A DNA stretch of 64,000 nt from Streptomyces bottropensis ATCC 25435 (GTDB lineage: Bacteria; Actinomycetota; Actinomycetes; Streptomycetales; Streptomycetaceae), in assembly GCF_000383595.1 (NCBI RefSeq), contig NZ_KB911581.1:1653727-1717726 (forward strand). Direction: 5' to 3'. Of this stretch, positions 19,247 through 38,619 are shown one piece after another (position 1 is the first letter of the stretch; each line of letters starts with the position of its first letter). The notes under the pieces are model-generated. The model made no database searches. It saw only the letters and a list, made by a program, of their open reading frames with translations, and was not told the DNA's origin. The position numbers and the translations under genes were made by a program.

Positions 19247-19328
19247 GGTGCCCAGGATGCACAGCCCTGTCGCGCCGGCCGTGGGCGGGTGACGATGACG
19301 TCTGCTCAAGCTGAATACGAGTTCGTCT

Positions 19329-20591: not shown

Positions 20592-20617
20592 TCGGATCCG
20601 GGGAGTAGTTGGTGCCC

Positions 20618-21870: not shown

Positions 21871-21925
21871 ATATTCTTGCAGCTCGCGTTCGGGGCGGCT
21901 ACTGGAAGCCGGGGAAGGGGCCTGT

Positions 21926-22744: not shown

Positions 22745-23477
22745 CATGAGAACTGAGGTCGGTGAGAATGTCTTTCGCGCCAGCTCTCTATACGTAAAGC
22801 CAGAACCAGGCCAACCGATGAGCTTCACGGAGCAGTTGAATCTAACGCGCAAGGGAGTTAATCCTAGACAGATTACTATCATTCATGCAGAGAGTCTCAG
22901 GGAAGTCGGGCTCCATGCGGAAGCTGTCCGAGTTAATGTTACCCTCGATGGAGGGTCGGCCAACCTTTTAGGTTCAGGCGGCGAACTGTCCTTCGGGGAC
23001 TTGCGCGTTCGTATTACCTTTGCTTGCGAGCCGTGTAATCATGGCGCAAGACTCGCAATGGCACCCATGCGTCATTTTCGTCGACTGCAGAGATACTGTG
23101 GCATGATTCTTGAGGACGGCTTTATCAGTCTAAGGGATCCGCAAGCAGGTTTCATTCCTCATCGATACCCTGCAGTGCCTGATGCTTTTATGGAGCGCTG
23201 CCTATGGGCTGCTCGACAGATCCCTTCAGGGAAAGTCGTTCCTTCTATCCAATTTCTGACAGCTATCGGGGCTAGTTCATCTTATGCCCGAGTGCTGCCT
23301 CGTTGGTTGTCTGCAGCTAATCTGGCCGACGCGCCTGTCCACAGAGTTCTGACCTCCAGGCTGACTAGTCCTTCATGGTGCCCAGATGCCCTTGATCGTC
23401 TAGAAGCTGAAGGGGTTGCACGCCCCGATTTGCATATGCACCAATTCGATCTCGCGAGACATCTCTGGCTGAACTGA
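22728..23477 (+). CDS. MOSC domain fused to alkyltransferase-like (ATL) domain
   Basis: A protein of about 249 aa. Residues of about 40-145 match a MOSC domain: RQITIIHAESL, a VNVTLDGG strand, GELSFGDLRVRITF and the conserved Cys in ACEPCNHGA. Residues of about 160-240 match the DNA-binding part of O6-alkylguanine transferases: CLWAARQIPSGKVV, a short HTH, SYARVLPRWL in place of the arginine-finger helix, and PVHRVLTSR where MGMT has the active-site PCHRV. The nucleophilic Cys is Val, as in ATL proteins that bind damaged bases without repairing them. One TTA codon lies at 22968. Starts at 22728 (GTG), 22737 or 22746 are possible; none has a clear ribosome-binding site, consistent with coupling to the preceding gene. 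Confidence 0.72.
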   Translation: MSIMVNMRTEVGENVFRASSLYVKPEPGQPMSFTEQLNLTRKGVNPRQITIIHAESLREVGLHAEAVRVNVTLDGGSANLLGSGGELSFGDLRVRITFACEPCNHGARLAMAPMRHFRRLQRYCGMILEDGFISLRDPQAGFIPHRYPAVPDAFMERCLWAARQIPSGKVVPSIQFLTAIGASSSYARVLPRWLSAANLADAPVHRVLTSRLTSPSWCPDALDRLEAEGVARPDLHMHQFDLARHLWLN

Positions 23478-23538
23478 GAGTGAAGCTTCAGCATATTGCT
23501 GCAGCTGAAATGGGTCCGATTGCCGGAAAGGGTGAGTA

Positions 23539-24702
23539 CTGAGGTTGAACTCGTGATGTCGTGCTGTTGGTCAGGCGGGTCTGATGGCCAGGCCGGTCTC
23601 TGCGAGGCAGCCGTCTATGAGATGGGTGCGGTACTGGATGTGCCGTAGGCCGCGTCGGATGCGCCGGACGAGGTGTTCGGGAGTACTGAAGGCAACGTTG
23701 GAGAGCCAGCCGCGCCGCAGAAGTGACCAGATCCCTTCGACGGGGTTGAGGTCGGGTGCGTAGGGCGGCAGGTAGTAGATGGTCAGCCAGTCCCGGGTTT
23801 CCGCCCATTCCCGCAGATCAGCGGCTTTGTGGACGTTGAGGTTGTCCCAGATGAGCACGATGGGGCCGCCGAGCTGCTGATGTGCGGCGATCAGCAGGTC
23901 GCGGTAGTCGCGCCAGGAGAAGCTCTTGCGGCCGTCGCGCCGGCCGTCGTCCCGGCGCGGCCGGTAGATCAGCCGGGACCGATGGCCGGACTTGTAGCAG
24001 GTCAGCGCGGCGATCGACACTCGCCTGCGGGAACGGCCCCGGACCCGCACCACGGGGGTCCGGCCGCGCTGCGACCAGGTCTTCGCCTGCGGCGGCGTCA
24101 TGGAGAATCCGGCTTCGTCCTCGAAGACGATCCAGGCTCCACGGGCCGCCGCGAGTCTTCCGCGCACGGCCACACCTCCTTGACCCACCCCGCGACCGCG
24201 TCGTCGTCCCGTTCCATGGCCCGTCGGGCCGGGACCTGGCAGGACCACCCATTACGCACCAGGAGCTTGCGCACACCCTGAAGCGTGTAGGACAGGTGGA
24301 AGCGCCGGCCGATCACCGTCTTGACCCGCGCCAGCGTCCAACGCTGGTCTTCCCAGCCATGCGCGGCCGGCCCCTTGGCCAGCTCCGCCTCCAACTGTGT
24401 GAACTGCTTCTGGCTCAGCCTCGGAAGCGACGCCGGCCCCTGCGACCGCAGAGCCCGCGGACCGCCCTCGTCCCACATCTGACGCCACCGCTGTACCGAC
24501 CGGACACTGACCCGCAGGTCCTTCGCGATCACCGAGCTCGCCTCACCCTGGGCGAACCTCTCGGCCGCCTTCAGCCGTAACTCCTCGCGGAACTGCTGCC
24601 GTTCGGCGGTCAGCCCGCCCCCTTGTGGATACCGCATGCCTTCGGTGATACCGCACGGGCAACGAGTCGTCAGCCCCTACGACTCCACGAGTTCAACCTC
24701 AG
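23539..24702. mobile_element. IS630-family insertion sequence
   Basis: The ends are a perfect 17-bp inverted repeat (CTGAGGTTGAACTCGTG at 23539 and its complement ending at 24702) that continues imperfectly inward. Each end is flanked by TA (23537-23538 and 24703-24704), the TA target duplication of IS630/Tc1 elements. It sits 60 bp downstream of the MOSC-ATL gene and does not interrupt a gene I can recognise. Confidence 0.9.
23571..24637 (-). CDS. IS630-family transposase, two overlapping frames
   Basis: The N-terminal part (24637 down to about 24150) encodes a helix-turn-helix protein: FREELRLKAAERFAQGEASS, VSVRSVQRWRQMWD. The C-terminal part ending at 23571 lies in another frame and has the DDE catalytic core: VFEDEAGFS, WDNLNVHKAAD and YAPDLNPVEGIWSLL. 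The two overlap at 24098-24248, and the protein text is continuous if the frame changes near 24150-24165 (VKEVWPCAE to LAAARGAW). No obvious A-rich slippery heptamer is seen, so the shift may be an inactivating indel rather than programmed frameshifting. Confidence 0.8.
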
Positions 24703-24704
24703 TA

Positions 24705-25062
24705 ATTGGTGACGTGAGGTCGGCGGATCGGCTCTGGAGTGGCGCTGCTTTGGCGCGAGTGATCATGGCCCGTAGCTTCCGGCGCGTCGGGCAGGCTGTG
24801 GACTTGCCCGATAAAGCACGACGCTGGGGCCATGATCTTCGAGGCTCGTGCCAAAGTGGCTCCGTAAAGCCGCGGAGCTGACCGCCCCAGCCACGAGGTA
24901 CCCCTTCTCTGGCACCATGCGGCTGCATGCTTCGAGCGCGGCGCGGACGCCGGCCGGGCTGGAGCGGGGCGGAGACAGGAGCGCAGGACCGGCCGGGGGC
25001 CGGGCCGCGCGCGGTGAGCGGAGCGAGCCGCCTTGAACCAGTAGAGAAAGTTTGAATCACGC
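24705..25062. other. remnant DNA between two insertion sequences
   Basis: No gene is recognisable. An imperfect inverted repeat has arms 24748-24770 and 24829-24855 (CTTTGGCGCGAG and CTCGTGCCAAAG, with ATCATGGCC shared), which could be a transposon end or a strong hairpin. The composition returns to high G+C towards 25000. It is presumably backbone DNA left after rearrangement. Confidence 0.45.
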
Positions 25063-25076
25063 GCTCCTGGCACGCT

Positions 25077-27062
25077 TGTCCGATCCCGGGTGATGCTTGA
25101 CAGTTCGATCCCAGCTGATGGTTGACGGTGGCCGTGATCGGCTTTGCTGTGCACGTCGTTGCGGCGTGTGGCGGGAGGCCGGGATTGGCGCTGGTGGAGT
25201 TGTCGGTTGTCGAGCAGAGATACCGGGCTGTGTTGGCAGTGCTGGCGGGCGCGACGGTGACCGAGGTCGCTGCGTCGCTCGGGGTGTCGCGGCAGACGGT
25301 CAGCGGGTGGAAGTCCCGGTATGAGGCCGAGGGGCTGGCGGGTCTGGCGGACCGGTCACGCAGGCCGGCGTCGTGTCCGCATCAGGCATCCGCCGAGGTG
25401 GAGACGGCGGTGTGTGAGCTGCGGCGTCAACATCCTCGGTGGGGGCCGCGGCGGATCGCTCATGTGCTGGAGCGGTCCGGGGCGGTGGCGCCGGTGCCGT
25501 CGCGGATGACGGTGTATCGGATTCTGGTCCGTCATGGTCTGGTGGAGCCGGGGGTGCGGCGCCGGAAGCGGTCGGATTACAAGCGCTGGCAGCGCGATCG
25601 AGCGATGCAGTTGTGGCAGATGGACATCGTCGGTGGGGTGATGCTGGTCAACCCGGTCACTGGCGAGCTGACCGAGGCGAAGATCGTGACCGGTGTGGAC
25701 GATCATTCCCGGTTCTGCGTGATCGCGTCGGTGGTGGAGCGGGCGACCGGGCGGGCGGTCTGCGCGGCCTTCGTCCGGGCCTTGCAGGCGTTCGGGGTGC
25801 CGGAGGAGGTGCTCACCGACAACGGCAAGCAGTTCACCGACCGGTTCGGGCATGGCGGTGAGGTGTTGTTCGACCGGATCTGCCGGGAGAACGGGATCGC
25901 GCACCGGCTCACCCAGCCGGCCTCGCCGACCACGACGGGCAAGGTCGAGCGGTTCCATCAGACGCTGCGACGTGAACTTCTCGACGACTGCGGTGCGTTC
26001 GAGAGCATCCAGGCGGCGCAGTCGGCGCTGGACGCGTGGGTGCAGGAGTACAACTCCGTCCGGCCGCATCAGGCGCTGGACATGCACTCTCCGGGTGATC
26101 GGTTCACGCCGGTTCCCGAGGAGGAGCGGGATGTGCTGGGGCTGAGGGTGCCGGGGGTGCTGGCTCTGGTGCCGCAGCAGCGGACTGCGCCTGCGGAGCG
26201 GGGTCCGGCTGAGGCGATGGCCGTCCGTGCCGGGCTGCCCGAGGAGGTCCCGGCATCGGCGGCGATGGAGCCCGGTGGGCCGGTGGAGTTCGAGCGGGTG
26301 GTGCCTGCGAGTGGAAATCTGCAGGTCGCGGGGAAGCAGTTCTGGCTGGGGCCGTCCCGTTCGGGGCTGACGGTGACGTTCTGGGCGGACACATCGGTGA
26401 TCCATCTGCTGGTCGCCGGGGCGCGGATCAAGAGTGTGCGGTCGCACCTGTCGGTGGCGGATCTCGTGCAGTTGGCCGCCCGGGGAGGTCGCGCGGCCGG
26501 TCCCTCTCCACTGCCTGCCGGGGACGGGGTGGCGTTCGAGGTGGACCGGGTGGTGAACAACAGCGGGCTGGTGAACCTGGGCGGGCGCCAGGTGCTGGCG
26601 GCGGAGATCCTCGGCGGCCGTCAGGTGGGCATCCGGATCGACGAGGAGACGCTGTCGTTCTTCGATCCGTCGTCGCGGGAGCTGCTGCGGGTGCGGCCCA
26701 ACCCGCTCACCAGCGAGAAGGTGCAGGGGTTGCACGGCCTGCGGCCCGCGGGTCCGCCGCCCCGGCCCCGGGTGGAGCCGGTCCGCGTGCAGCGGCGGGT
26801 CAGCGCGGTGGGCACGGTCATGGTCTGCCGCCAGACCGTCTCCCTCGGCCGCCCCTACGCAGGCCAGACGGTGACCGTGCACGTGTCGGACACAACGATC
26901 ACCATCGAGCTGGACGGGCAGATCCGGGTCATCCGGCGCACGACCGACGTCCCGGTCCGTAACGTGAAAGCGAACAAGCCCCACGGGGCTTCCCAAGTTG
27001 TCTAGGCCCACCGTCAAACAACAGCTGGGACCAGAACGTCAGGCATCAACTGGGACCCGACA
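25077..27062. mobile_element. IS481-like insertion sequence with 14-bp target duplication
   Basis: The element begins TGTCCGATCCC and ends GGGACCCGACA. About 56 bp at each end form an imperfect inverted repeat built of two similar blocks (TGATGCTTGAC and TGATGGTTGACGG). GCTCCTGGCACGCT occurs immediately outside both ends (25063-25076 and 27063-27076), a 14-bp direct repeat best explained as target duplication. The clean duplication suggests a recent insertion. It landed a few bases outside the terminus of the next insertion sequence. Confidence 0.88.
25185..27005 (+). CDS. IS481-like transposase with Mu-type C-terminal extension
   Basis: About 606 aa. An N-terminal helix-turn-helix (VTEVAASLGVSRQTVSGWKS) leads into an rve/DDE core with the acidic residues in LWQMDIVGGV, VLTDNGKQF and TTTGKVERFHQTLRRE. 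The catalytic core ends near residue 340; the remaining 260 residues hold two related beta-rich units (each with FERVV or FEVDRVVNNSG then QFWLG or QVLAAE), similar to the C-terminal barrel of Mu-like transposases. Ordinary IS481 transposases are about 300-400 aa, so this is a long variant. TTG at 25185 has GGGAGG at 6-nt spacing; the frame is open back to 25122. Confidence 0.85.
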   Translation: MALVELSVVEQRYRAVLAVLAGATVTEVAASLGVSRQTVSGWKSRYEAEGLAGLADRSRRPASCPHQASAEVETAVCELRRQHPRWGPRRIAHVLERSGAVAPVPSRMTVYRILVRHGLVEPGVRRRKRSDYKRWQRDRAMQLWQMDIVGGVMLVNPVTGELTEAKIVTGVDDHSRFCVIASVVERATGRAVCAAFVRALQAFGVPEEVLTDNGKQFTDRFGHGGEVLFDRICRENGIAHRLTQPASPTTTGKVERFHQTLRRELLDDCGAFESIQAAQSALDAWVQEYNSVRPHQALDMHSPGDRFTPVPEEERDVLGLRVPGVLALVPQQRTAPAERGPAEAMAVRAGLPEEVPASAAMEPGGPVEFERVVPASGNLQVAGKQFWLGPSRSGLTVTFWADTSVIHLLVAGARIKSVRSHLSVADLVQLAARGGRAAGPSPLPAGDGVAFEVDRVVNNSGLVNLGGRQVLAAEILGGRQVGIRIDEETLSFFDPSSRELLRVRPNPLTSEKVQGLHGLRPAGPPPRPRVEPVRVQRRVSAVGTVMVCRQTVSLGRPYAGQTVTVHVSDTTITIELDGQIRVIRRTTDVPVRNVKANKPHGASQVV

Positions 27063-27078
27063 GCTCCTGGCACGCTTC

Positions 27079-28099
27079 TAAAACTGCCGATCATCGTTGA
27101 CACCTGGGTCTCTGATCACTACGGAGATCCACATGTCGAAGACACCCCCGCTCGATCGTGAGGCCAAGCGGCGCCTGGCGGTCATACGTCATGTCGAAGA
27201 GGTCACCGGCAACGTCGCCATGAGTTGCCGGTACTTCGGCATCAGTCGGCAGGCGTACTACATCTGGTATCGCCGCTACCAAGCCGAGGGCGTCGAAGGG
27301 CTGCGCACGCGCTCGAAGGCGCTCAAGCACAGTCCGAACGCCACGCACGTCGAGGTGGTCGGGAAGATCATCTATCTCCGGCAGAACTACCACTTCGGGC
27401 CCGAGAAGATCGCGATGTACCTCAAGCGGTATCACGACGTCACGATCAGCAAGTCGGGCGTGTGGCGGATCCTCAAGCGCCTGGACATGGGCCGTCTGCC
27501 GGCCTCTCAGCGGTACAAGCGGCACGACCGCCGGTGGAAGCGGTACGAGAAGCAGCTGCCCGGCCACCGGGTGCAGATCGACGTGAAGTTCATCGAGCCG
27601 CTCGCATCCATGCCTCAAGGCCGGCGCGGCGGCCGCAACAAGTACTACCAGTTCACGGCGATCGACGACTGCACTCGGCTGCGGGTCTTGAAGATCTATC
27701 CGACGCTCAACCAGGCCACTGCCATCCAGTTCGTCGACTACGTCCTGCAGAGGCTGCCGTTCCAGGTGGAGGTGATCCAGACGGACAACGGAGCTGAGTT
27801 CCAGTCCGCCTTCCACTTCCACGTGCTCGACAAAGGCATCGGCCACTCCTACATCAAGCCCCGTACGCCGCGGCTGAACGGGAAGGTCGAACGCTCGCAC
27901 CGGATCGATGGCGAGGAGTTCTACCGGCTCCTGGAGGGCGTCATCATCGACGATGCCGAGGTCTTCAACGACAAGCTGCGCGAGTGGGAGGACTACTACA
28001 ACTACCATCGCCCACACGGCGGCCTCGGCGGCCAGACTCCCTACGAACGCCTCAAGCAGAAGACCGCACCCCAGGCGTAAACGATCATCGTCGGTTGCA
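27079..28099. mobile_element. second IS481/IS3-like insertion sequence
   Basis: The ends are weaker than those of its neighbour. TAAAACTGCCGATCATCGTT at 27079 resembles the complement of the stretch ending at 28099 in 17 of 24 positions. The right end cuts straight into the coding sequence of the Rep remnant, and the left neighbour is not Rep, so DNA was lost on the left after insertion. The exact ends are approximate. Confidence 0.65.
27133..28080 (+). CDS. IS481/IS3-type transposase
   Basis: A 315-aa protein from ATG at 27133 (MSKTPPLDREAKRRLAV). The N-terminal helix-turn-helix contains SCRYFGISRQAYYIWYRRYQ. The rve core has QIDVKFIEP (Asp), VEVIQTDNGAEFQSAF (Asp) and LNGKVERSHRIDGEEFY (Glu), followed by YYNYHRPHGGLGGQTPYERL at the end, typical of this superfamily. 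Length and motifs look complete, so it may be active. The upstream GGAGAT is the likely ribosome-binding site. Its composition is a little less G+C-rich than the core chromosome. The transposase stop lies about 20 bp before the right end of the element. Confidence 0.88.
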   Translation: MSKTPPLDREAKRRLAVIRHVEEVTGNVAMSCRYFGISRQAYYIWYRRYQAEGVEGLRTRSKALKHSPNATHVEVVGKIIYLRQNYHFGPEKIAMYLKRYHDVTISKSGVWRILKRLDMGRLPASQRYKRHDRRWKRYEKQLPGHRVQIDVKFIEPLASMPQGRRGGRNKYYQFTAIDDCTRLRVLKIYPTLNQATAIQFVDYVLQRLPFQVEVIQTDNGAEFQSAFHFHVLDKGIGHSYIKPRTPRLNGKVERSHRIDGEEFYRLLEGVIIDDAEVFNDKLREWEDYYNYHRPHGGLGGQTPYERLKQKTAPQA

Positions 28100-29129
28100 C
28101 AGCGTCTTCGCTACCTTCACCGCCCCCTCCTTCGGCCCCGTGCACAACCGCCCCGGCGGCGGCCGGTGCCGCTGCGGCCGACTCCACCCCGACGACGACC
28201 CCGCACTCGGCACACCCCTGGACCCCGACCGCTACGACTACCGCGCCGCAGTCCTCTGGAACGCCCACGCTGGCGCGCTCTGGGCCCGCTTCACCACCTA
28301 CCTGCGCCAGCAACTCGCCGCCCGTGCGGGCCTCACCCGCTCGGAGCTCCGCGACAGCCTCAAGGTCTCGTACGCCAAGGTCGCCGAGTACCAGCAACGC
28401 GGTGCCGTCCACTTCCATGCCGTCATCCGCCTCGACGGCCCCGACGGCGCTGAAGACACCCCACCGCCCTGGGCGACGACCGAACTCCTCACCGACACAA
28501 TCCGCACGTCGGCGCGCCTCGCCGAAGCCCCCGGCCCTGTCCTCGACGCACGCCCCTACACCTTCCGCTTCGGCAAACAGCTCGACGTCCGCCCCATCCA
28601 CTCGGCCGACTTCGCGGGCACCTCGGAACTCTCCAGCCGCGCCGTCGCCTCGTACATCGCGAAGTACGCCACCAAGGGCGCCGAGACGGCCGGCACCCTC
28701 GACCGCCCCATTCGCAACCCGATCACCGACCTGATCGGATCCGGCGTCACCGACCACGCCCGACAGCTGATCCTCACCTGCTGGCACCTCGGAGCCCGCC
28801 CCGAACTCGAAGCCCTCCGCCTGCGCAAGTGGGCCCACATGCTCGGCTTCCGCGGCCACTTCTCCACCAAGTCCCGCGCCTACTCCGTCACCCTCGGCGC
28901 CCTCCGCCAGGAACGCGCCGACCACAACGAAGCCCTCACCCGCGCCCGCGCCGCCGAAGCAGGTCACCCCCTGCCCGACCCGGACACCGTGCTCGTCCTC
29001 TCCCACTGGCGCTTTGCGGGCACTGGTCTGACCGCTGCTGAGACCTGGTTCGCCACCTCGCGGCGACCCGCTATCCCCGACACCGACACGGAAGGAGACT
29101 CGGCGTGGATCGCCGACGAGACGAACTGA
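28100..29129 (+). pseudogene. RepSA-type replication initiator, 5'-truncated
   Basis: The frame begins abruptly at the insertion-sequence edge with HSVFATFTAPSFGPVHNRPG and continues for about 340 residues to the TGA at 29127-29129. FATFTAPSFGPVH, AEYQQRGAVHFHAVIRLDG (the HUH-like metal-binding His pair) and SYIAKYATKGAE are hallmarks of the rolling-circle initiators of pSAM2/SLP1-type elements. Full-length relatives have about 100 more residues at the N-terminus, including a Cys-rich segment. With that part missing and no start codon, the gene should be inactive, so the element cannot replicate after excision unless helped. Confidence 0.88.
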
Positions 29130-29299
29130 TGACTGTCCCGCAGGTCCTCACCGAGCTGGGTGGAATCTCCCGCCGCACCTTCTACCGCTGGCGTGAGCTG
29201 GGACAGGCTCCGGAAGCGATCAAGCTCCCGAATGGTGAACTCCGCTTCTGGCGCAGTGACTTCACTGCATGGCTTCACGGACTCGGGGAGGCGGCGTGA
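29105..29299 (+). CDS. xis: excisionase (HTH_17/MerR-like)
   Basis: A 64-aa DNA-binding protein. TVPQVLTELGGISRRTFYRW, then LGQAPEAIKLPNGELRFWRS is the winged-helix pattern of AICE excisionases, which bend DNA at the attachment sites to favour excision by the integrase. GTG at 29105 has AAGGAGA at good spacing and overlaps the rep 3' end by 25 bp; ATG at 29129 is the alternative. Its TGA overlaps the integrase GTG as GTGA (29296-29299). Rep, Xis and Int would therefore be made from one transcript. Confidence 0.88.
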   Translation: MDRRRDELMTVPQVLTELGGISRRTFYRWRELGQAPEAIKLPNGELRFWRSDFTAWLHGLGEAA

Positions 29300-30714
29300 A
29301 GTCGCATGACGTGAAGGTGTGGAGCATCCGTAAGCGGCCGTACAAGACGCCGTCCTACGACGTGCGTTGGAAGGTCGGGGACGTCCCACCGTTCTCCGAG
29401 ACCTTTCGGACCAAGGCGCTCGCTGACAACTTCCGCGCGAAGCTGCTTCGGGCTGCGCAAAAGGGCGAGGCATTCGACACGGAAACCGGGCTGCCGGACT
29501 CCATGGCACCGGTCAAAGAGTCTCTCTCCTGGTACGACTTCGCGCGGGCGTACGTCGCCATGAAGTGGCCGCATGCTGCCCCGAACTCGCGTGACAGCCT
29601 GAACGAGACGATGACACTCGTCACGACTCAGCTCCTGGGCGACCGGCCCGGTCGTCCGGCAGACGAGGTGTTGCGGCGTGCCCTGCGCGGCTGGGCCTTC
29701 GTCGTCCAGGCCCCGGACGAGGAAGCGCCGCCGGTGGACATCGCCAATGCCCTCCGCTGGGTCGCCAAAGCCTCGCTGTCGCTGGCGACGCTCAAGAATG
29801 CGGCAGATATCCGCAGCGTTCTCGACTCGCTCAAGCTCACGTTGTCCGGGGCCCCGGCTGCCGCTGAGACGGTGCGGCGCAAGCGGGCCGTCCTGTTCAA
29901 CGCCCTGGCCTATGCGGTCGAGCTGGGGGAGCTCCCGGAGAACCCGGTCACGCTCGTGAAGTGGAAGCTGCCGAAGGTGGCCAAGGAAGTGGACCGCCGA
30001 GTCGTGGTGAACCCGCGGCAGGCTGTTGAACTCCTTGGCGCTGTCTCGTACGTCGGTGGCTACCGTCGGGCTCGTGGGCGCCGCCTGGTCGCGCTGTTCG
30101 CCTGCATGTACTTCGGTGGGCTTCGGCCGGCGGAAGCGGTGGCGCTGCGTCGTCCGGACTGCACGCTGCCGGACACCGGTTGGGGCTCGTTGATCCTGGA
30201 GAAGAGCCGTCCCACTGTCGGCAAGCGTTGGACCGGAACGGGGGAGGTGCACGACAACCGCGGGCTCAAGAACCGGCCCGCGAACGAGACCCGCATCGTT
30301 CCGATTCCGCCCCGCCTAGTCCGCATCCTGCTCGCGCACATCGAGGAGTTCGGTACGGCCAAGGACGGGCGGCTGTTCGCCAATGAGCGCGGGGGAGTGG
30401 TCGCCTCCACCACGTACTGGCGTGTCTGGGACGAGGCGCGGCACCTGGCGCTCACTCCGGAACAGGCGGCGTCGCCGCTGGCTGCGCGACCGTACGACCT
30501 ACGGCACGCCGCGCTCTCCTCGTGGCTCAACGCAGGGGTGGACCCGACCGAGGTGGCGGAGCGGGCGGGCAACAGCGTGGAGGTGCTGCTGAGCCGGTAT
30601 GCGAAGTGTCTTGATGGCCGTCAAGACATCGCCAACAGTCGGATCGCCGAACTCCTCGGTGAGGACGGCGACCAGGAGCACGACCAGAAAGACGGCCGAC
30701 CGGACGAGACCTGA
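29296..30714 (+). CDS. int: tyrosine site-specific integrase of the element
   Basis: A 472-aa integrase. The N-terminal part is an arm/core-binding region with an AP2-like start (VWSIRKRPYKTPSYDVRWKV). The catalytic half has the first Arg in YFGGLRPAEAVALRR, RPYDLRHAALSSWLNAGVDP with the His-x-x-Arg block, and the nucleophile Tyr in VEVLLSRYAKCLDG. It recombines the element's attP with the tRNA-Arg 3' end. GTG at 29296 overlaps the xis stop, with GGGGAGGC upstream. All catalytic residues seen are intact, so excision could still occur. A strong hairpin follows the stop. Confidence 0.92.
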   Translation: MKSHDVKVWSIRKRPYKTPSYDVRWKVGDVPPFSETFRTKALADNFRAKLLRAAQKGEAFDTETGLPDSMAPVKESLSWYDFARAYVAMKWPHAAPNSRDSLNETMTLVTTQLLGDRPGRPADEVLRRALRGWAFVVQAPDEEAPPVDIANALRWVAKASLSLATLKNAADIRSVLDSLKLTLSGAPAAAETVRRKRAVLFNALAYAVELGELPENPVTLVKWKLPKVAKEVDRRVVVNPRQAVELLGAVSYVGGYRRARGRRLVALFACMYFGGLRPAEAVALRRPDCTLPDTGWGSLILEKSRPTVGKRWTGTGEVHDNRGLKNRPANETRIVPIPPRLVRILLAHIEEFGTAKDGRLFANERGGVVASTTYWRVWDEARHLALTPEQAASPLAARPYDLRHAALSSWLNAGVDPTEVAERAGNSVEVLLSRYAKCLDGRQDIANSRIAELLGEDGDQEHDQKDGRPDET

Positions 30715-30738
30715 TTCGACATACCTGCACACAGCGCA

Positions 30739-30768
30739 GTGGCCCTCGGACTTCAGTCCGGGGGCCAC
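30739..30768. terminator. terminator behind int
   Basis: A 14-bp stem, GTGGCCCTCGGACT and AGTCCGGGGGCCAC with one T-G pair, closes a two-base loop. It is placed between int and the convergent gene ending at 30798 and can serve both strands. A similar hairpin occurs at 31901-31926. Confidence 0.8.
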
Positions 30769-30797
30769 GATATGCAGCCGCTCCGAGTGGCGCACCG

Positions 30798-31382
30798 CTA
30801 CGGTACGCGAACCCAGCCGATATGGCGCAATACGGGCAATATGCGAGTCACCGCATAGAAGGCCGCGTGTGTCCCCTCCTCACAGTCCGGCTCGAACAAG
30901 GCGCAAAGCTCACCCTTGCCCGGCCGGTCGCGAGTGATGACTTCTCCCTTGGGCCCGATGTCGGTGATGCCGAGTCGGCACGCCGCTTGGATGAATTTGG
31001 CATCGCACACAGCGTCGAGGGCGTCGAGCGTGGGCTGTTGCTGATGGAGGGGCCAGCCATCGGGTTGGAAGGTGATAGTCCGAGCAGTCATCCAAGTGTG
31101 GTAAGCGTCGCAGTAGTAGACGCCCGCGCGGCGTCGCTCGTAGAACTTGGCCATCTCTCGGGGCATCTCGGGAAGCTGCTCGGACATGATCGTGCGGATG
31201 TCGCGCTCTCCGACCTCCCAAGTGATGTCCCGAACAGTGATGCTGGGGCGCCCCTTGACAGTCAGTAGCCAGTCACCAGCGATGCCCTGAGAACGTTCCT
31301 TCGTGAAGGTCAGCCCAGTAACGGTGAACGGTTCCTCGGGAGGCGTGAGAGCTATGCCCACGCCGATCTCAATCTCAGACAA
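30798..31382 (-). CDS. hypothetical protein next to int
   Basis: A 194-aa soluble protein starting LSEIEIGVGIALTPPEEPFT. TTG at 31382 is preceded by GGGGAAAGG at 9-nt spacing; no better start exists downstream. Features are TVRDITWEVGERDIRTIMSE, then MPREMAKFYERRRAGVYYCD and DRPGKGELCALFEPDCEEGT. I know of similar genes beside integrases of Streptomyces elements but no function. There is no membrane helix and no catalytic motif. It is convergent with int and sits between two copies of an int-terminator-att-flank sequence, which suggests that it was inserted there. Confidence 0.7.
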   Translation of the reverse strand: MSEIEIGVGIALTPPEEPFTVTGLTFTKERSQGIAGDWLLTVKGRPSITVRDITWEVGERDIRTIMSEQLPEMPREMAKFYERRRAGVYYCDAYHTWMTARTITFQPDGWPLHQQQPTLDALDAVCDAKFIQAACRLGITDIGPKGEVITRDRPGKGELCALFEPDCEEGTHAAFYAVTRILPVLRHIGWVRVP

Positions 31383-31824
31383 TGGAGCTGACCTTTCCCC
31401 GCGGGTGCGGTGACTCCGGTGCGTCGGACTGCAACGAAAAGAGCAGGGGGTGTGGCGCCGGGCATGATCCAGCCCCCGTTGGTGCATCAGCGGATTGTCG
31501 TGACATTCCGATGTAATGCGACTATAGGGCTCCAATCCTCCTCTGCAACATGGGAGTTGAGAGAGCGATGTACTCCTGCTGCAAATCTTGGAGCCTGTCA
31601 GCGTGGTGGCCGCACACCAGTGCTGTGCGCAGTTGATGACATTCGCTAGATCAAGGCCTGGTGTCGCAGCACCTTGCGAAGCCACGGTGCAGTGAGGCTG
31701 CCCCCTGGATGTCCGTCCGCATGCGGACGAGGACCTGTTCCCAACGATGTGAGCGTCGCACCGCGCCGGTGTTCCCCCGGAGCTGGCGGAAGTCGCCTCC
31801 GCCTCCAGAGCTCACGAGTGCCGC

Positions 31825-31945
31825 ACCTTGGGGAGGAGGGTGACCGAGAGGGCAGCCGGCCGGCCGAGACCTGATCCGACACACCCACGCACGGCACAAG
31901 GGCCCCCGGACTCCAGTCCAGGGGCCTCGTCGTTTCCCGGGCCCC
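31825..31945 (+). pseudogene. second integrase 3' end and terminator (relic)
   Basis: LGEEGDREGSRPAET followed by TGA, then a run of similar non-coding DNA and a hairpin (31901-31926), copies the end of the intact int (LLGEDGDQEHDQKDGRPDET, 30655-30768). Nothing of the catalytic domain is present. The rest of 31383-31824 shows no gene. The relic lies directly beside the right attachment site, where an integrase gene normally ends. Confidence 0.68.
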
Positions 31946-32024
31946 ACCTGCGGATTCGTGCCCTGCAGCCAGTCCACACATAGTCCACAGCACCCGACAT
32001 ACGGCCGCTCCGAGCGGCATACGG

Positions 32025-32140
32025 CTGCACATACGCGAAGACCCCGTTCTCAGCTAAAGCGCTGATGGCGGGGTCTTTGGGCACCTCATGCAAGGTGCCC
32101 CCGGCAGGATTCGAACCTGCGCACACGGCTCCGGAGGCCG
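32025..32140. repeat. right attachment site, within tRNA-Arg(CCG)
   Basis: The partner of 14872-14987. The core 32091-32140 is the 3' half of the intact tRNA. Element DNA lies to the left, so after integration the tRNA is rebuilt from its chromosomal 5' half and the element-borne or shared 3' half and stays functional. Confidence 0.92.
32038..32077 (-). terminator. terminator of tRNA-Arg
   Basis: Arms AAGACCCCG and CGGGGTCTT enclose an inner stem-loop; it begins about 20 bp past the tRNA 3' end on the minus strand. It is duplicated at 14885-14924 as part of the attachment-site repeat. Confidence 0.75.
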
Positions 32141-32167
32141 TTGCTCTATCCCCTGAGCTACGGGGGC
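32096..32167 (-). tRNA. tRNA-Arg, anticodon CCG
   Basis: The minus strand folds into a full cloverleaf of 72 nt without CCA. It has acceptor GCCCCCG/CGGGGGC, D-stem GCTC/GAGC, anticodon stem ACGGC/GCCGT with loop CTCCGGA (anticodon CCG, reading CGG), and T-arm GCAGG-TTCGAAT-CCTGC with discriminator A. CCA is not encoded. It is the integration target of the 17-kb element to its left. Confidence 0.97.
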
Positions 32168-32340
32168 GTGTCGGGCGCCTTGTGGGGCGGCGACGGGTAG
32201 AACCCTACCAGCTCTCCGAGGGAGATCATGAACGGTTTTTGGTGGGTGGAGGGTGGGGTTGAGCTGGGGGAGACCGCCCGCAGGGGGTGGAAGTGGGGAA
32301 AACCCGGACGCGGCGGTGGGGGCGGACCTACTCTCGAGTT

Positions 32341-32847
32341 GTGCCAGGCGCGTCCGGCCGGGTGCTTGTTGTAGACGACAACAAGGTCATCCGGCAGCTG
32401 ATCAGGGTCAATCTCGAGCTGGAGGGCTTCGAGGTGGTGACCGCGGCCGATGGTGCCGAGTGCCTGGACGTCGTTCACCAGGTGCGGCCCGACCTCATCA
32501 CCCTCGACGTGGCCATGCCCCGTCTCGACGGCCTCCGTACCGCCGCCCGGCTGCGCAGCGACCCCCGGACGCGGCGCCTTCCGCTCGCCATCGTCAGTGC
32601 CTGCTCGCAGTACGAGGTCGAGGCCGGCCTCGACGTCGGCGTCGACGCGTTCCTTGCCAAGCCCTTCGAGCCGGCCGAACTCGTCGCCCTCGTACGGCGG
32701 TTGGTGGAGAGTGGGGCCTCCGGCGACGGTGAGGCCGAGCCGGCTTACGGGGTCGGTGGCGATGGTCCCGCCCCAGTCGGTGGCACCGAGCACGCGCACG
32801 CCGAGCACACCGAGTGCGCGGAGCGGGCCGGTCGCACCGGCAGCTGA
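32341..32847 (+). CDS. orphan response-regulator receiver protein
   Basis: A 168-aa protein from GTG at 32341. Residues of about 6-120 form a receiver domain: RVLVVDDNKVIRQL with the acidic pair, the phosphoacceptor Asp in PDLITLDVAMPRLDG, and the Lys in VDAFLAKPFEPAEL. There is no DNA-binding output domain; the last 45 residues are a low-complexity Gly/His/Glu tail. No kinase gene is adjacent. It may act by protein-protein contact or as a phosphate sink. It is the first chromosomal gene right of the tRNA. Confidence 0.87.
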   Translation: MPGASGRVLVVDDNKVIRQLIRVNLELEGFEVVTAADGAECLDVVHQVRPDLITLDVAMPRLDGLRTAARLRSDPRTRRLPLAIVSACSQYEVEAGLDVGVDAFLAKPFEPAELVALVRRLVESGASGDGEAEPAYGVGGDGPAPVGGTEHAHAEHTECAERAGRTGS

Positions 32848-33095
32848 ACTCCGTGAGCATGGGAGTTTTCCGGACTGCTGGACTGCTGGACGGCGGGTTG
32901 CGGGGGCTCGGAACCTCCGGGAGCCGTAGACACCTCGAAACGCCGGCCCTGCCCGTCAGCCCATGACGCGCTGCCCCGCCGCCGTCCCCTCGTAGACGCC
33001 TCAGCCGCAGGCGCCCCACCCAACCCTGTCCACATCCCGGACCTCAGGCCAAACCGGCTCGCATACCCACCCCCCTCCTCCCATACCCTTGTCCC

Positions 33096-34418
33096 GTGAC
33101 CCCCGTCGAGCTCTCCCGTACCGTGCTGCGCGCGGTGCGTCGTGCTGTGGACGAAGGGGAGCTGAGTGTCGCCGTGCCCGCACATGCCGTCGTGACTCCC
33201 CCCGGGCCCGGGGGGAGCGGGGACTACGCGACGAACATCGCGTTGCAGCTGGCCAGGCCCGCCGGGCGACCGCCGTTGCGGGTCGCCGAGATACTGCGGC
33301 CCCACCTCAGCGAGACCGCGGGCGTCGCCGCCGTCGAGATCACCGGCCCCGGGTTCCTCAACTTCCACCTCGAACGGGTTGCCGTCACCACCCTGGTACG
33401 CCGGATCCGAGGGACGGCGTGCAGCGTTCAGGGAGCCGGGGGAACCCAGGGCGGCGAGGGCTCCGATCCCCTCCCGTACGGCCACAGCGACGACCTCGCC
33501 GGGCAGGTCGTCCGGCTGCGGATCCCGTACGACATCCGTGCGGAGGTCATCGCCGACGCGCTCGTGCGGATCGTCGCCAGCCAGGGCGGTCGCGTCGAGG
33601 TCGACCACATCCGGTCCCAGGCCGTCGCCGACGAGGGCAAGTTCGACGGTCCCGAGAGCCCCGACGATCCCCTGAGCCCCGACGGCCCCGACGGCCCCGA
33701 CGGCCCCGCGAACGCCGGTGACCCAGACCTCGCGCACGAACCCTCCGCCCCCGATCGCCCCGGCGGGACCATCACCCCCAGCCCCAGCCTCACCCCCGCC
33801 CTCAGCCCTACCCCCATCAACCTCCGCCCCGTCCCCGCCCCCGAGGACCCCACCCCCCTCGGCCCCGACGCCCTCCGCTGGGCCCTCCTGCATCCGGCCG
33901 CCCACGACCGCCCCCGGATCACCGCCGACCTCCTCGTGCAGCGGGCCGCGAACCCCCTCTTCCGGGTCCGTTACGCCCACGCCCGAGCCCGCGCGCTCAC
34001 CCGCAACGCCGCGGCCCTCGGCTTCACCGCCACCCCTGGGCCCCTGCACGCCCCCTGCGCCCCGGGCGACCTCCATACCTCCTCCATCAACACCGAGCGC
34101 ACCGTCGACCCCACCAACCCCACCGGCCTCACCGACTCCTCCGCCACCCCCGACACGGCCACCCCCCTCGTCACCGCCCTCACCACCTACCCCTCCGCCC
34201 TCACCCGAGCCGCCACGCTCCGCGCTCCCGATCGACTCGCCCGGCACCTGGTCGTCCTCGCCGACGCCCTGCTCGCCTTTCAGCACACGGTGCTGCCGCG
34301 CGGCGACGAGAAACCCTCGGCCGCCCACCGGGCCCGGCTGGCGCTTGCCGAAGCCGCCGGGACGGTGCTGGCCGGCGGCCTGTCCCTGCTCGGCATCGAC
34401 GCACCCGAATATCTCTGA
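33096..34418 (+). CDS. ArgS-related protein lacking the catalytic domain (NrtL-like)
   Basis: A 440-aa protein. The N-terminus (TPVELSRTVLRAVRRAVDEG, then GDYATNIALQLARPAGRPPL) matches the additional N-terminal domain of arginyl-tRNA synthetase that binds the tRNA D-loop. The C-terminus (DALRWALLHPAAHDRPRITA, FRVRYAHARA, HLVVLADALLAFQHT and APEYL end) matches its DALR anticodon-binding domain. The aminoacylation core between them, with HIGH and KMSKS, is replaced by a Pro/Thr-rich, low-complexity linker. It therefore cannot charge tRNA. The family is known beside lysA in Streptomyces as nrtL, function unknown. The neighbouring tRNA-Arg gene is a striking coincidence. Confidence 0.82.
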   Translation: MTPVELSRTVLRAVRRAVDEGELSVAVPAHAVVTPPGPGGSGDYATNIALQLARPAGRPPLRVAEILRPHLSETAGVAAVEITGPGFLNFHLERVAVTTLVRRIRGTACSVQGAGGTQGGEGSDPLPYGHSDDLAGQVVRLRIPYDIRAEVIADALVRIVASQGGRVEVDHIRSQAVADEGKFDGPESPDDPLSPDGPDGPDGPANAGDPDLAHEPSAPDRPGGTITPSPSLTPALSPTPINLRPVPAPEDPTPLGPDALRWALLHPAAHDRPRITADLLVQRAANPLFRVRYAHARARALTRNAAALGFTATPGPLHAPCAPGDLHTSSINTERTVDPTNPTGLTDSSATPDTATPLVTALTTYPSALTRAATLRAPDRLARHLVVLADALLAFQHTVLPRGDEKPSAAHRARLALAEAAGTVLAGGLSLLGIDAPEYL

Positions 34419-34439
34419 GCGAGCCCGCGAAGCCCCAAG

Positions 34440-34615
34440 CCACCGAGCCGACAGCCGAGAGCCGAGAGCAGACAGCCGAGAGCAGACAGCCGAACGGCGA
34501 ATTCCCACCGCCGAAAGCCCACCGCCGAAAGCCCACCGCCGAAAGCCCACCGCCCCCAGCGGAAGCCCGAGCCGAAGCCCAGGCCCAGCCCGAAGCCCAG
34601 GCCCAGCCAAGGCCA
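34440..34615. repeat. short tandem repeats upstream of lysA
   Basis: Three kinds of short direct repeat are packed between the ArgS-like gene and lysA: GAGAGCAGACAGCC units, GCCGAAAGCCCACC three times (from about 34508), and GAAGCCCAGGCCCAGCC twice. No coding frame of normal character crosses it. Copy number is likely to vary between strains. Confidence 0.75.
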
Positions 34616-34673
34616 CGCCCCGGTCGTCGGCCCTCCGCGCCGCAGCCCAGAGTTCACAGAAAGCCGTACAGAC

Positions 34674-36065
34674 ATGAGCCGTTCCGCACACCCCGCCGGT
34701 CCCCGTCACGCCGACGTGCTTCCCGAGGGGCACTACTCCGCCCCGCCCGCCGACCTGAACACGCTGGACCCGAAGGTGTGGGCGCAGACCGTCACCCGCG
34801 CGGACGACGGGGTCGTCAGCGTCGGTGGGATCGATGTGAAGGCGCTCGCGGAGGAGTTCGGTACGCCGGCGTACTTCGTCGACGAGGCCGACTTCCGGGC
34901 GCGGGCGCGCGCCTGGCGCACGGCGTTCGGGCAGGACGCCGACGTGTTCTACGCGGGGAAGGCCTTCCTCTCCCGGGCCGTCGTGCGCTGGCTGCACGAG
35001 GAGGGGCTCAACCTCGACGTCTGCTCCGGCGGCGAGCTGGCGACCGCCCTCTCCGCCGGGATGCCCGCCGACCGCATCGCCTTCCACGGCAACAACAAGT
35101 CCACCGACGAGATCCACCGGGCCATCGAGGCCGGCGTCGGCCGTATCGTGCTCGACTCCTTCCAGGAGATCGTGCGGGTCGCCCACATCGCGCAGTCGCT
35201 CGGCCGGCGCCAGCGGGTGCAGATCCGGGTCACCGTCGGCGTCGAGGCCCACACGCACGAGTTCATCGCCACCGCTCACGAGGACCAGAAGTTCGGGATC
35301 CCGCTCGCCGGCGGACAGGCCGCGGAGGCCGTGCGGCGGGCGCTCAAGCTGGACGGGCTCGAACTCATCGGGATCCACTCGCACATCGGGTCGCAGATCT
35401 TCGACACATCCGGTTTCGAGGTCGCCGCCCACCGTGTCGTCGGTCTGCTCAGGGACATCCGTGACGAGCACGGCGTCGAGCTGCCCGAGATCGACCTCGG
35501 CGGCGGCCTCGGCATCGCCTACACCAGCGCCGACGACCCCCGCGAGCCCCACGAGACCGCCAAGGCACTCACCGAGATCGTCAACCGTGAGTGCGACGCC
35601 GCGAAGCTCCGCACGCCCCGGATCTCCGTCGAGCCGGGCCGCGCGATCGTCGGGCCCACCGCGTTCACGCTGTACGAGGTCGGCACCATCAAGCCGCTGG
35701 ACGGGCTGCGAACGTACGTCTCCGTGGACGGCGGCATGTCCGACAACATCCGCACCGCGCTGTACGACGCCGAGTACAGCGTCTCGCTGGTGTCCCGGAC
35801 CTCCGACGCCGAGCCGATGCTCGCGCGCGTGGTCGGCAAGCACTGCGAGAGCGGTGACATCGTGGTGCGGGACGCGTTCCTGCCGGCGGACCTGGCACCG
35901 GGTGACCTGATCGCCGTGCCGGCGACGGGCGCGTACTGCCGTTCGATGGCGAGCAATTACAACCACGTACTGCGCCCGCCGGTCGTCGCCGTCAATGATG
36001 GACAGGCCCGGGTCATCGTCCGCCGGGAGACGGAGGAGGATCTTCTCCGTCTCGACGTCGGCTGA
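34674..36065 (+). CDS. lysA: diaminopimelate decarboxylase
   Basis: A 463-aa fold-type III PLP enzyme that decarboxylates meso-diaminopimelate to L-lysine in the cytoplasm, the last step of lysine synthesis. Visible motifs are [14 protein letters not shown] with the PLP Lys, [26 protein letters not shown] for the phosphate, [10 protein letters not shown], and the catalytic Cys/acid region [10 protein letters not shown] followed by [12 protein letters not shown]. Its length is usual. ATG at 34674 is used; the ribosome-binding site is weak. It starts the lysine/threonine block, and hom follows by about 190 bp with a hairpin between (36089-36142). Confidence 0.96.
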
Positions 36066-36142: not shown

Positions 36143-36252
36143 AAAATGAAATAGATGTCTCACGATCCGGACGAGGGATAGAAACTCCCGTCCGGTGAGT
36201 GAGACTGGTTCCACCGTATTCGGTATGTCGGTATGTGAGGAAACGAGGTCGG

Positions 36253-37554
36253 ATGATGCGTACGCGTCCGCTGAAGGTGGCGCTGCTGGGCTGTGGGGTA
36301 GTCGGCTCAGAGGTGGCGCGCATCATGACGACGCACGCCGACGACCTCGCCGCCCGTATCGGTGCCCCGGTCGAACTCGCGGGCGTGGCCGTCCGGCGGC
36401 CCTCGCGGGTGCGTGCGGGCATCGACCCGGCGCTCGTCACCACCGACGCGACCGCCCTGGTCAAACGGGGGGACATCGACGTCGTCGTCGAGGTCATCGG
36501 CGGTATCGAGCCCGCCCGCACCCTCATCACCACCGCGTTCGAGCACGGCGCCTCCGTCGTCTCCGCCAACAAGGCGCTCCTCGCCCAGGACGGCGCCGCG
36601 CTGCACGCCGCGGCCGGCGAGGCCGGCAAGGACCTCTATTACGAGGCCGCCGTCGCCGGCGCCATCCCGCTGATCCGTCCGCTGCGCGAGTCCCTCGCCG
36701 GCGACAAGATCAACCGGGTGATGGGCATCGTCAACGGCACCACCAATTTCATCCTCGACAAGATGGATTCCACGGGCGCCGGGTATCAGGAGGCTCTCGA
36801 CGAGGCCACCGCCCTCGGATACGCGGAAGCCGACCCGACCGCCGATGTCGAGGGGTTCGACGCCGCCGCCAAGGCCGCGATCCTCGCCGGCATCGCCTTC
36901 CACTCGCGTGTGCGGCTCGACGACGTGTACCGCGAGGGCATGACCGAGGTGACGTCGGCCGACTTCGCCTCCGCCCGGAACATGGGCTGCACCATCAAGC
37001 TGCTCGCCATCTGCGAGCGGGCCGCGGACGGTGGCTCCGTCACGGCGCGCGTGCACCCCGCGATGATCCCGCTGACCCACCCCCTCGCCTCCGTGCGCGG
37101 CGCCTACAACGCCGTGTTCGTGGAGTCGGACGCCGCCGGGCAGCTGATGTTCTACGGGCCGGGCGCGGGCGGCGCCCCCACGGCCTCCGCCGTGCTCGGC
37201 GACCTCGTGGCCGTGTGCCGCAACCGGCTCGCGGGCGCCACCGGCCCCGGCGAGTCCGCGTACGCGGCCCTGCCGGTCTCGCCGATGGGTGACGTGGTCA
37301 CCCGCTACCACATCAGCCTTGACGTCGCCGACAAACCGGGTGTTCTCGCCCAGGTGGCGACCGTGTTCGCGGAGCACGGCGTATCGATCGATACGGTGCG
37401 GCAGCAAGGACGGCCGGACGGCGGCGGCGAGGCCTCTCTCGTCGTCGTCACGCATCGCGCCTCCGACGCCTCCCTCAGCGGGACCGTCGAGGCACTGCGC
37501 AATCTCGACACCGTGCGGGGTGTCGCCAGCATCATGCGGGTTGAAGGAGAGTAA
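36253..37554 (+). CDS. hom: homoserine dehydrogenase
   Basis: A 433-aa cytoplasmic NAD(P)-dependent dehydrogenase that reduces aspartate semialdehyde to homoserine, the branch-point step to threonine and methionine. The Rossmann start VALLGCGVVGSEVAR, the substrate/catalytic region GIVNGTTNFILDKM and EADPTADVEGFDAAAKAAIL, and a C-terminal ACT domain (about residues 355-430, ISLDVADKPGVLAQVATVFA) are visible. The ACT domain is the site of threonine feedback inhibition in this family. Starts at 36253 and 36256 are adjacent; GAGG upstream is better spaced from the second. thrC follows after 6 bp, so they form an operon. Confidence 0.96.
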   Translation: MMRTRPLKVALLGCGVVGSEVARIMTTHADDLAARIGAPVELAGVAVRRPSRVRAGIDPALVTTDATALVKRGDIDVVVEVIGGIEPARTLITTAFEHGASVVSANKALLAQDGAALHAAAGEAGKDLYYEAAVAGAIPLIRPLRESLAGDKINRVMGIVNGTTNFILDKMDSTGAGYQEALDEATALGYAEADPTADVEGFDAAAKAAILAGIAFHSRVRLDDVYREGMTEVTSADFASARNMGCTIKLLAICERAADGGSVTARVHPAMIPLTHPLASVRGAYNAVFVESDAAGQLMFYGPGAGGAPTASAVLGDLVAVCRNRLAGATGPGESAYAALPVSPMGDVVTRYHISLDVADKPGVLAQVATVFAEHGVSIDTVRQQGRPDGGGEASLVVVTHRASDASLSGTVEALRNLDTVRGVASIMRVEGE

Positions 37555-37560: not shown

Positions 37561-38619
37561 ATGACCCACCAATGGCGCGGAATCATCGAGGAGTACCGGG
37601 ACAGGCTGCCCGTCTCCGACAGCACGCCGGTCGTGACGCTCCGCGAGGGCGGCACGCCCCTCGTGCCCGCGCAGGTGCTCTCCGAGCGCACGGGCTGCGA
37701 GGTCCACCTCAAGGTCGAGGGTGCCAACCCGACCGGGTCCTTCAAGGACCGCGGCATGACCATGGCCATCACGCGGGCGAAGGAGGAGGGCGCGAAGGCG
37801 GTCATCTGTGCCTCCACGGGCAACACCTCCGCCTCCGCGGCCGCCTACGCCGTCCGCGCGGGCATGGTCTCCGCCGTGCTCGTCCCGCGCGGGAAGATCG
37901 CGCTGGGCAAGATGGGCCAGGCCCTGGTGCACGGCGCGAAGATCCTCCAGGTCGACGGCAACTTCGACGACTGCCTCACCCTCGCGCGTGAACTGAGCGA
38001 CAACTACCCGGTGGCGCTGGTCAATTCGGTGAACCCGGTGCGCATCGAGGGCCAGAAGACCGCCGCGTTCGAGATCGTGGACATGCTGGGCGACGCCCCC
38101 GACATCCACGTCCTGCCGGTGGGCAACGCGGGCAACATCACGGCGTACTGGAAGGGCTATACGGAGTACGCGGCCGACGGCATCGCGGCCAGGACCCCGC
38201 GCATGTGGGGATTCCAGGCTTCCGGTTCCGCGCCCATCGTGCGCGGCGAGATCGTCAAGGACCCGTCGACGATCGCCACCGCGATCCGCATCGGCAACCC
38301 CGCGTCCTGGAAGTACGCCCTGGCGGCGCGGGACGAGTCGGGCGGCTTCATCGACGAGGTGACGGACCGTGAGATCCTGCGCGCCTACCGCCTGTTGGCC
38401 GCTCAGGAGGGTGTCTTCGTGGAGCCCGCCTCCGCCGCCTCCGTGGCCGGTCTGCTGAAGGCCGCGGAGAACGGCAAGGTCGACCCGGGGCAGACCATCG
38501 TCTGCACGGTCACCGGCAACGGCCTCAAGGACCCCGACTGGGCCGTCGCGGGCGCCCCGCAGCCCGTTACCGTCCCGGTGGACGCGGCGACGGCGGCCGA
38601 GCGCCTCGGCCTGGCGTAA
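37561..38619 (+). CDS. thrC: threonine synthase
   Basis: A 352-aa PLP enzyme that converts O-phosphohomoserine to threonine. The PLP Lys is in [16 protein letters not shown], and the Ser/Thr-rich phosphate-binding stretch in [20 protein letters not shown]. The loop [20 protein letters not shown] and the C-terminal [10 protein letters not shown] are also typical of class I threonine synthases. It starts 6 bp after hom with GGAGAG in the hom end as ribosome-binding site, so translation is probably coupled. A hairpin follows the stop, and thrB has its own 300-bp upstream region. Confidence 0.96.

Follow-up and report, generated by a model that had tools for sequence, protein, structure and literature searches.

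We consider it fairly probable that the gene nrtL of Streptomyces bottropensis is the original actinobacterial gene for arginyl-tRNA synthetase (ArgS), hollowed out in place, kept by selection and now coding for a non-catalytic RNA-binding protein. It was found in a stretch of 64,000 nucleotides (the window), which lies on a single 8.96-Mb contig. The open reading frame 33096-34418 scores 453.1 bits, where the cut-off is 340, on the NCBIfam equivalog model NF045898 ('ArgS-related anticodon-binding protein NrtL'), residues 1-440 being aligned to positions 1-327 of the 327 in the model, a match far above chance. The match is full-length, the gene neighbourhood is the same in relatives, and we found no difference between the window protein and the NrtL family.

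The family has already been named by NCBI, and the new part is its reading as a displaced, hollowed-out original synthetase. The entry line of NF045898 gives the name and states no function. A literature search on the NrtL name, on SCO5352 (which we take to be the locus number of NrtL) and on the cluster in Streptomyces found no paper among the matches listed, those for 'NrtL' mostly concerning a solubility model with the same letters. In the portions of the literature on NrtL, SCO5352 or the argS-lysA cluster that were available, an origin as a displaced synthetase was not seen reported.

The locus has the following features (window coordinates, strand, basis of the assignment in brackets):

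32094..32167, minus: tRNA-Arg(CCG), which lies upstream in divergent orientation and serves as an integration site (tRNA scan, repeat)
32341..32847, plus: response-regulator receiver protein, conserved upstream neighbour, putative start codon (Pfam, synteny)
33084..33089, plus: -10-like element (TACCCT) that stops 7 nt short of the GTG, putative leaderless promoter shared with ancestral argS (upstream comparison)
33096..34418, plus: nrtL, probable non-catalytic ArgS relic of 440 aa with a GTG start (open frame, NCBIfam and Pfam matches)
33144..33371, plus: ArgS N-terminal domain, D-loop-binding in ArgS, residues 17-92 (PF03485, joint alignment)
33501..33611, plus: residues 136-172, a vestigial beta-alpha-beta unit left from the catalytic domain, with the segment aligned to SANPTGPxHxG deleted (ArgS alignment, AlphaFold2)
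33621..33845, plus: variable, repeat-bearing linker, residues 176-250, mostly of low pLDDT (length variation, AlphaFold2, repeats)
33852..34412, plus: last part of the catalytic domain together with the DALR anticodon-binding domain, residues 253-439 (PF05746 at 292-439, alignment)
34293..34337, plus: NrtL signature LPxGxEKPxxAHRxR, residues 400-414 (all NrtL counted combine K406, P407 and H411)
34674..36065, plus: lysA, downstream cluster gene (TIGR01048, 483.8 bits)
36199..37554, plus: homoserine dehydrogenase gene (hom/thrA), start codon uncertain (family scan, synteny)
37561-38619: ORF after hom, which we take to be thrC, the next ORF presumably being thrB (tblastn between loci)

Domain layout and the remnant of the catalytic core

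The initial annotation had proposed that the protein keeps the two tRNA-binding outer ends of ArgS, and both are present. In the Pfam scan, residues 17-92 matched Arg_tRNA_synt_N (PF03485) with 56.8 bits (cut-off 21.5) and residues 292-439 matched DALR_1 (PF05746) with 56.3 bits (cut-off 22.3), and in the predicted structure the arrangement is ArgRS-like. The loss of the catalytic motifs, likewise claimed at the outset, was also seen. Neither a HIGH-type signature nor a KMSKS-type loop occurs in the window NrtL, the HIGH segment being deleted in the alignment with ArgS. The three Pfam families found in NrtL at E up to 1 include no catalytic-domain model, and no tRNA_bind (EMAPII-like) domain, which we take to be PF01588, the mark of Arc1p/Trbp111-type tRNA-binding cofactors. 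The arginyl-tRNA synthetase model TIGR00456 scores 71.6 bits, below its curated cut-off of 261.65. Our main set comprised 106 unique NrtL sequences including that of the window, from 110 loci, of which L049 and L068 (cut, or lacking the start motif) and three identical sequences were dropped. Among the 106, the HxGH pattern occurs once (L095, in a His-rich stretch away from the aligned place) and the [LM]SK[RS] pattern not at all.

In the alignment with 26 synthetases of the lysA-linked type (see below), NrtL is co-linear at both ends. Its profile positions 2 to about 155 correspond to the N-terminal domain of ArgS and the first part of its catalytic domain, those from about 193 correspond to the last ~160 ArgS residues, and the ~220 ArgS residues in between have no counterpart. 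The deletion removes the SANPTGPxHxG segment and leaves the next helix with its Arg (R148, 106/106). The AlphaFold2 model (38 aligned sequences, mean pLDDT 81.8, pTM 0.71) shows a confident beta-alpha-beta in this stub, with a block of pLDDT 94-98 over residues 131-170. Among known structures it resembles the Pyrococcus ArgRS-tRNA complex most closely, with Z 21.5 and an rmsd of 3.0 over 320 residues, and each of the 15 highest-ranking entries is an ArgRS (Z 16.2-21.5, rmsd 3.0-8.3). Foldseek TM-scores of full-length matches are modest, 0.50-0.59 on the NrtL model, as expected from the deletion.

The description of a Pro/Thr linker in place of the catalytic domain needed revision. A low-complexity stretch is indeed found at residues 176-250, where it is Pro/Asp/Ala/Gly-rich, but residues 136-172 form a folded catalytic stub and the Thr/Pro-rich part (about 312-352) sits within the DALR part. 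Both low-complexity parts vary among species, and total length in the 106 sequences ranges from 322 to 484 aa with a median of 357.5. Two members (L176 and L178, from genomes G322 and G396) are only 254 aa long; they have the EKPGTAHR tail and have neither stub, linker nor GPGF.N.

Probable origin of nrtL at the argS-lysA locus

In a sample of 296 genomes across the phylum, 7 had an NrtL scoring above the cut-off. In the order, 110 of 147 genomes had one, all belonging to the genus of the window (132 of the 147), and 0 of the 15 others did. Among the 22 genomes of the genus under the cut-off, the 19 looked at (G182, G371 and G374 were left out) carry a diverged or contig-cut NrtL beside lysA. 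In one set of 12 genomes, 10 had NrtL beside lysA; the other two, G434 (79% complete) and G441 (98%, 740 contigs), both of the same genus, have no NrtL match and no usual lysA locus, which is either an assembly gap or a real loss of the cluster.

Gene order was compared in 80 relative loci (L004-L083; 79 from Streptomyces and one from a Streptomycetaceae MAG). In 79 of them nrtL stands directly upstream of lysA, the last being cut by the contig end, and the full order response regulator, nrtL, lysA, hom is found in 76, with three lacking only the response regulator and one cut. All 14 Streptomyces panel genomes, mostly chosen for low scores, likewise have NrtL in front of lysA; this position is a feature of the members seen here and is no curated criterion for NrtL. 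The single-domain response regulator at 32341-32847, kept between tRNA-Arg and nrtL, also stands beside some intact argS genes in other actinobacteria. In the window the gap between nrtL and lysA (34419-34673) measures 255 bp and consists largely of tandem repeats (the 14-nt unit CCCACCGCCGAAAG and others).

An intact argS occupies the same place elsewhere in the phylum. We fetched 19 argS regions from other actinobacteria, 16 from genomes that belong to the class but not to the genus (all but G139) and three from the phylum; in 18 of these regions lysA follows argS within about 2.1 kb. The sister families f71 and f72, of the same order, show this arrangement in 6/6 loci. In a second set of 30 loci we counted the plus strand only, and the 19 with lysA are thus a lower bound. 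Five of the 14 sampled f72 genomes were checked, and each carries the lysA-linked ArgS together with a second, ArgS2-type enzyme (split over two frames in G303), while the single f71 genome, G296, has only the lysA-linked one. In Streptomyces, ArgS2 is present in 13 of the 14 panel genomes; the remaining one, G378 (410 contigs), has no intact ArgS, possibly because of a gap. ArgS2 is also the sole intact ArgS found in the window genome.

The tree of 61 rows was rooted on ArgS2 and used 19 of the 106 NrtL; the fragment L162 was dropped, as were L143 and L147, whose chosen frame had no profile match. All NrtL fall into a single clade (100/100) with a long stem of 1.08, nested in the lysA-linked ArgS, and ArgS2 falls into a separate, distant clade (100/100). 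The branches joining NrtL to the ArgS of f72 (91/80) and f71 (88/89) are moderately supported. Profile scores agree, the two parts of the NrtL profile summing to 144-271 bits on the 26 lysA-linked-type ArgS versus 56-94 bits on 16 ArgS2. NrtL as a duplicate of the genome's own ArgS was ruled out by the tree and by the genome having just two DALR_1 matches, the other being the intact ArgS about 0.88 Mb from nrtL. One Streptomyces genome (G375, C3:1562841-1564427) has an additional intact lysA-linked-type ArgS, L160, with no lysA in the fetched flanks; this could possibly be a resistance or pathway copy.

The upstream sequence has also been preserved. The T seven bases before the GTG of nrtL is found in 105/105 NrtL, one of the 106 lacking the full upstream stretch. 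At 11/11 starts of ancestral-type argS looked at, a GTG is preceded by a TAnnnT box that ends 7-9 nt ahead of it, and the consensus of the 105 NrtL has such a box as well. These argS genes open with GTGAC[TC]CC, as does nrtL here. Shared box and shared start are as expected for inherited leaderless transcripts, which we infer for nrtL and the ancestral-type argS.

NrtL thus resembles the lysA-linked actinobacterial ArgS (TIGR00456) in its N-terminal domain, first beta-alpha-beta, catalytic end, DALR domain, locus, promoter box and start. It differs from it in that the ArgS has the HIGH segment, KMSKS and ~220 more residues, whereas NrtL alone has a fixed C-terminal motif. Because of the lysA-linked ancestry and of f72 carrying both enzymes, NrtL looks like the displaced original synthetase of its lineage, hollowed out in place together with its promoter. 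According to our sequence comparison, the ancestor would have had argS before lysA-hom-thrC-thrB, often beside tRNA-Arg(CCG). The distantly related ArgS2 would have arrived before or during the loss of catalysis, as the situation in f72 supports. In the Streptomyces lineage the lysA-linked copy would then have lost the HIGH segment and ~220 catalytic residues, and with these motifs missing it should no longer aminoacylate. Promoter, start, mini-Rossmann stub and both outer domains would have been retained, and in the C-terminal domain a motif variable in ArgS would have become fixed. The intermediates appear to be visible in living genomes, from one enzyme (f71, one genome) through both (f72) to the new enzyme with a hollow relic (Streptomyces) and on to further shrunken relics.

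The initial annotation had drawn attention to the tRNA-Arg gene 0.9 kb away and to its use as an integration site. The tRNA-Arg(CCG) does lie 929 bp upstream of nrtL, and a direct repeat of 172 nt (92% identity; 14816-14987 and 31969-32140) overlaps the 3' part of the tRNA with its second copy and bounds 17.15 kb. The closeness as a special link to NrtL did not hold up. The tRNA-Arg(CCG) lies near nrtL, divergently upstream, in 45 of the 48 loci scanned (of the 80), but 12 of the 19 regions with intact argS in other actinobacteria have it too, so the neighbourhood is inherited and gives no evidence of a special link. It was found in 2/6 of the f71/f72 argS loci, where flanks were short, and in 0/5 loci of other, unlinked ArgS. 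The element within the tRNA is incidental to NrtL, and NrtL as its cargo was rejected on finding the gene outside the repeat-bounded stretch and in the same place in relatives. The element is probably a degraded pSAM2-type one and comprises:

14816-32140: integrated element, 17.15 kb (att-like repeats in tRNA-Arg(CCG))
27097-28080: transposase gene
27984-29129: RepSA-like replication gene (374 bits), overlapping the end of the transposase gene
29269-30714: integrase-like gene (24.4 bits, below the cut-off of 27.1)

A protein of 926 aa is encoded at 15190-17970 on the minus strand, with a trypsin-like peptidase, a STAND-like NTPase (below cut-off) and TPR parts; its only PADLOC match is weak (E 0.0048). 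Its gene has repeat units spaced 138 nt, with five overlapping 276-nt copies, four of them 61-93% like the reference, which suggests repeat expansion.

Selection and conserved residues

We counted differences per codon at positions 1, 2 and 3 in 47 disjoint pairs of relatives, with these results (the ratio is of second to third positions):

N domain: 0.118, 0.110, 0.262; ratio 0.42
Stub: 0.207, 0.208, 0.313; ratio 0.66
Linker: 0.252, 0.269, 0.365; ratio 0.73
C part: 0.119, 0.103, 0.228; ratio 0.45
Tail (398-440): 0.049, 0.032, 0.127; ratio 0.25
LysA (same pairs): 0.038, 0.028, 0.196; ratio ~0.14

NrtL evolves much faster than LysA (0.136 versus 0.028 second-position differences per codon). By simple count dN/dS has a median of 0.43 in 52 pairs, a value that serves as support only, owing to codon bias. 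The codon-position differences indicate that NrtL is under protein-level selection, looser than that on LysA and tightest in the tail. A sequencing artefact or pseudogene is ruled out by this selection and by the open frame in 106 unique sequences.

These data bear on the idea that nrtL is a dying relic kept in cis, in which the frame carries the cluster promoter and couples translation to lysA and the protein is irrelevant. It would fit the conserved promoter-like stretch, the short gap to lysA (median 25 nt in 78 relatives) and the fast evolution, with stub and linker lost in several divergent members. Nevertheless we judge it very unlikely, as the frame is open in the 106 unique and also in 14 further sequences and the tail is conserved as protein, some of its residues being fixed in NrtL and variable in ArgS.

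The 14 further sequences are additional, mostly divergent NrtL members, in which stub or linker is often gone. K406, P407 and H411 occur together in 106/106 main-set and 14/14 further NrtL versus 0 of the 26 lysA-linked-type ArgS, which have Lys at 406 in one, Pro at 407 in 10 and His at 411 in 11 cases; the motif is partly present in ArgS, the f72 enzyme L157 having K-P. Together with these three, W262, Y293 and R297 are kept in all 14 further and 105/105 alignable main-set NrtL (L060, in which the pattern was not found, is outside this C-part count and inside the 106-sequence residue counts). Position 262 is Tyr in 26/26 ArgS. Y293 and R297 of the YAxAR motif are invariant in the 26 ArgS.

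The proposed check on conservation of the tRNA-contact residues, whose loss was to count against tRNA binding, gave a mixed outcome. The pocket for A20 of the D-loop in E. coli ArgRS consists of Phe36, Gln40, Ala78, Phe82 (stacking) and Asn84, according to the available part of PMC8975779. We mapped these residues via a gap-free alignment with 4oby, for which a numbering offset of one was inferred. Phe82 is kept in 106/106 NrtL and Asn84 in 93, but Ala78 has become Thr in 105/106. The Phe36 position is C, S or R in 97/106, having already been His in 25 of the 26 lysA-linked-type ArgS. At the Gln40 position NrtL has Ala, which 23 of those 26 share. Among the 14 further members GPGF.N is found in 8, GGGF.N in 4 and neither in 2.

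In the C-terminal part, where the statements are based on conservation in the 26 ArgS and not on structures, several residues present in 26/26 ArgS have changed: Y290 to R in 96/106 NrtL, Q292 to R in 105/106, H393 to L, F or M in 101/106 and the last residue M to L in 98/106. Given these changes at ArgS-invariant positions and the 6 of 14 further members without GPGF.N, ordinary tRNA-Arg recognition may be gone.

The DALR domain could have been recruited as a protein-binding helical bundle with RNA binding lost, a purely protein-directed role that we hold to be improbable. It would agree with the conserved tail and its own fixed residues and with the C part as a whole, where 90% or more of NrtL retain 24 of the 42 ArgS-invariant positions, the other 18 being less well kept. 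It sits less well with Y293 and R297 of YAxAR being kept in 119/119 aligned NrtL, and with the arginines at 290 and 292 in the main set, though position 292 is Gln in 10/14 others; these ten keep the ancestral residue, and the additional arginine is thus no general trait of NrtL.

Possible roles of NrtL

We regard non-catalytic RNA binding by NrtL as likely, and the role in regulation or chaperoning put forward in the initial annotation as a guess. The fold and the kept YAxAR motif suggest that the remodelled DALR domain would bind tRNA-like or anticodon-arm-like RNA. As a guess, RNA-bound NrtL might tune the lysine/threonine cluster that it heads or report the amino-acid state to it. We base this link on the position of the gene and on the reported response of corynebacterial argS, the argS-lysA cluster of corynebacteria responding to arginine and lysine according to the available part of PMC7923171 (citing Oguiza 1993). 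The accessible portion of PMC2744654, however, states that as of 2009 transcriptional control of argS-lysA was not known.

A search for known riboswitches or leader RNAs found none within 31500-35500, only the tRNA being above its threshold; a Plastid-ycf2 match opposite the tRNA (27.4 bits) was rejected as under the gathering score of 65.7. With a gene that looks leaderless and no leader RNA found, no RNA target is visible. It seems doubtful to us that NrtL senses tRNA-Arg or an anticodon-like RNA through its remodelled DALR domain and, after displacement by a foreign synthetase, sets lysine/threonine (and so diaminopimelate-using) gene output across Streptomyces.

Arc1p-type cofactors help synthetases by binding tRNA in trans, and NrtL might similarly be a tRNA chaperone or partner that binds tRNA-Arg in trans and aids ArgS2, ribosomes or another factor, with no control of genes. 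The ArgRS-like arrangement of both outer domains and the presence of NrtL in 14/14 and ArgS2 in 13/14 panel Streptomyces genomes are in line with this. However, recognition residues are altered, and in the f72 genomes that were checked ArgS2 occurs in the absence of NrtL, albeit together with an intact lysA-linked ArgS; we find such a partnership unlikely.

Non-catalytic proteins derived from synthetases include the HisRS-like domain of GCN2, SLIMP, POLG2 and HisZ. Like NrtL, these are synthetase copies without aminoacylation that were kept for another job; they are mostly duplicates of a synthetase still in use, whereas NrtL would be the copy still standing at the ancestral locus after a synthetase from a different clade displaced it. 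The available part of a review of synthetase paralogs (PMC9437257) describes its own focus as those retaining the catalytic domain.

If NrtL is the original ArgS hollowed out in place, this conserved Streptomyces protein at the head of a lysine/threonine cluster would be a clear case for asking what a synthetase does once it is freed from charging tRNA, and it raises the question whether a regulatory task of synthetases persisted after catalysis was lost.
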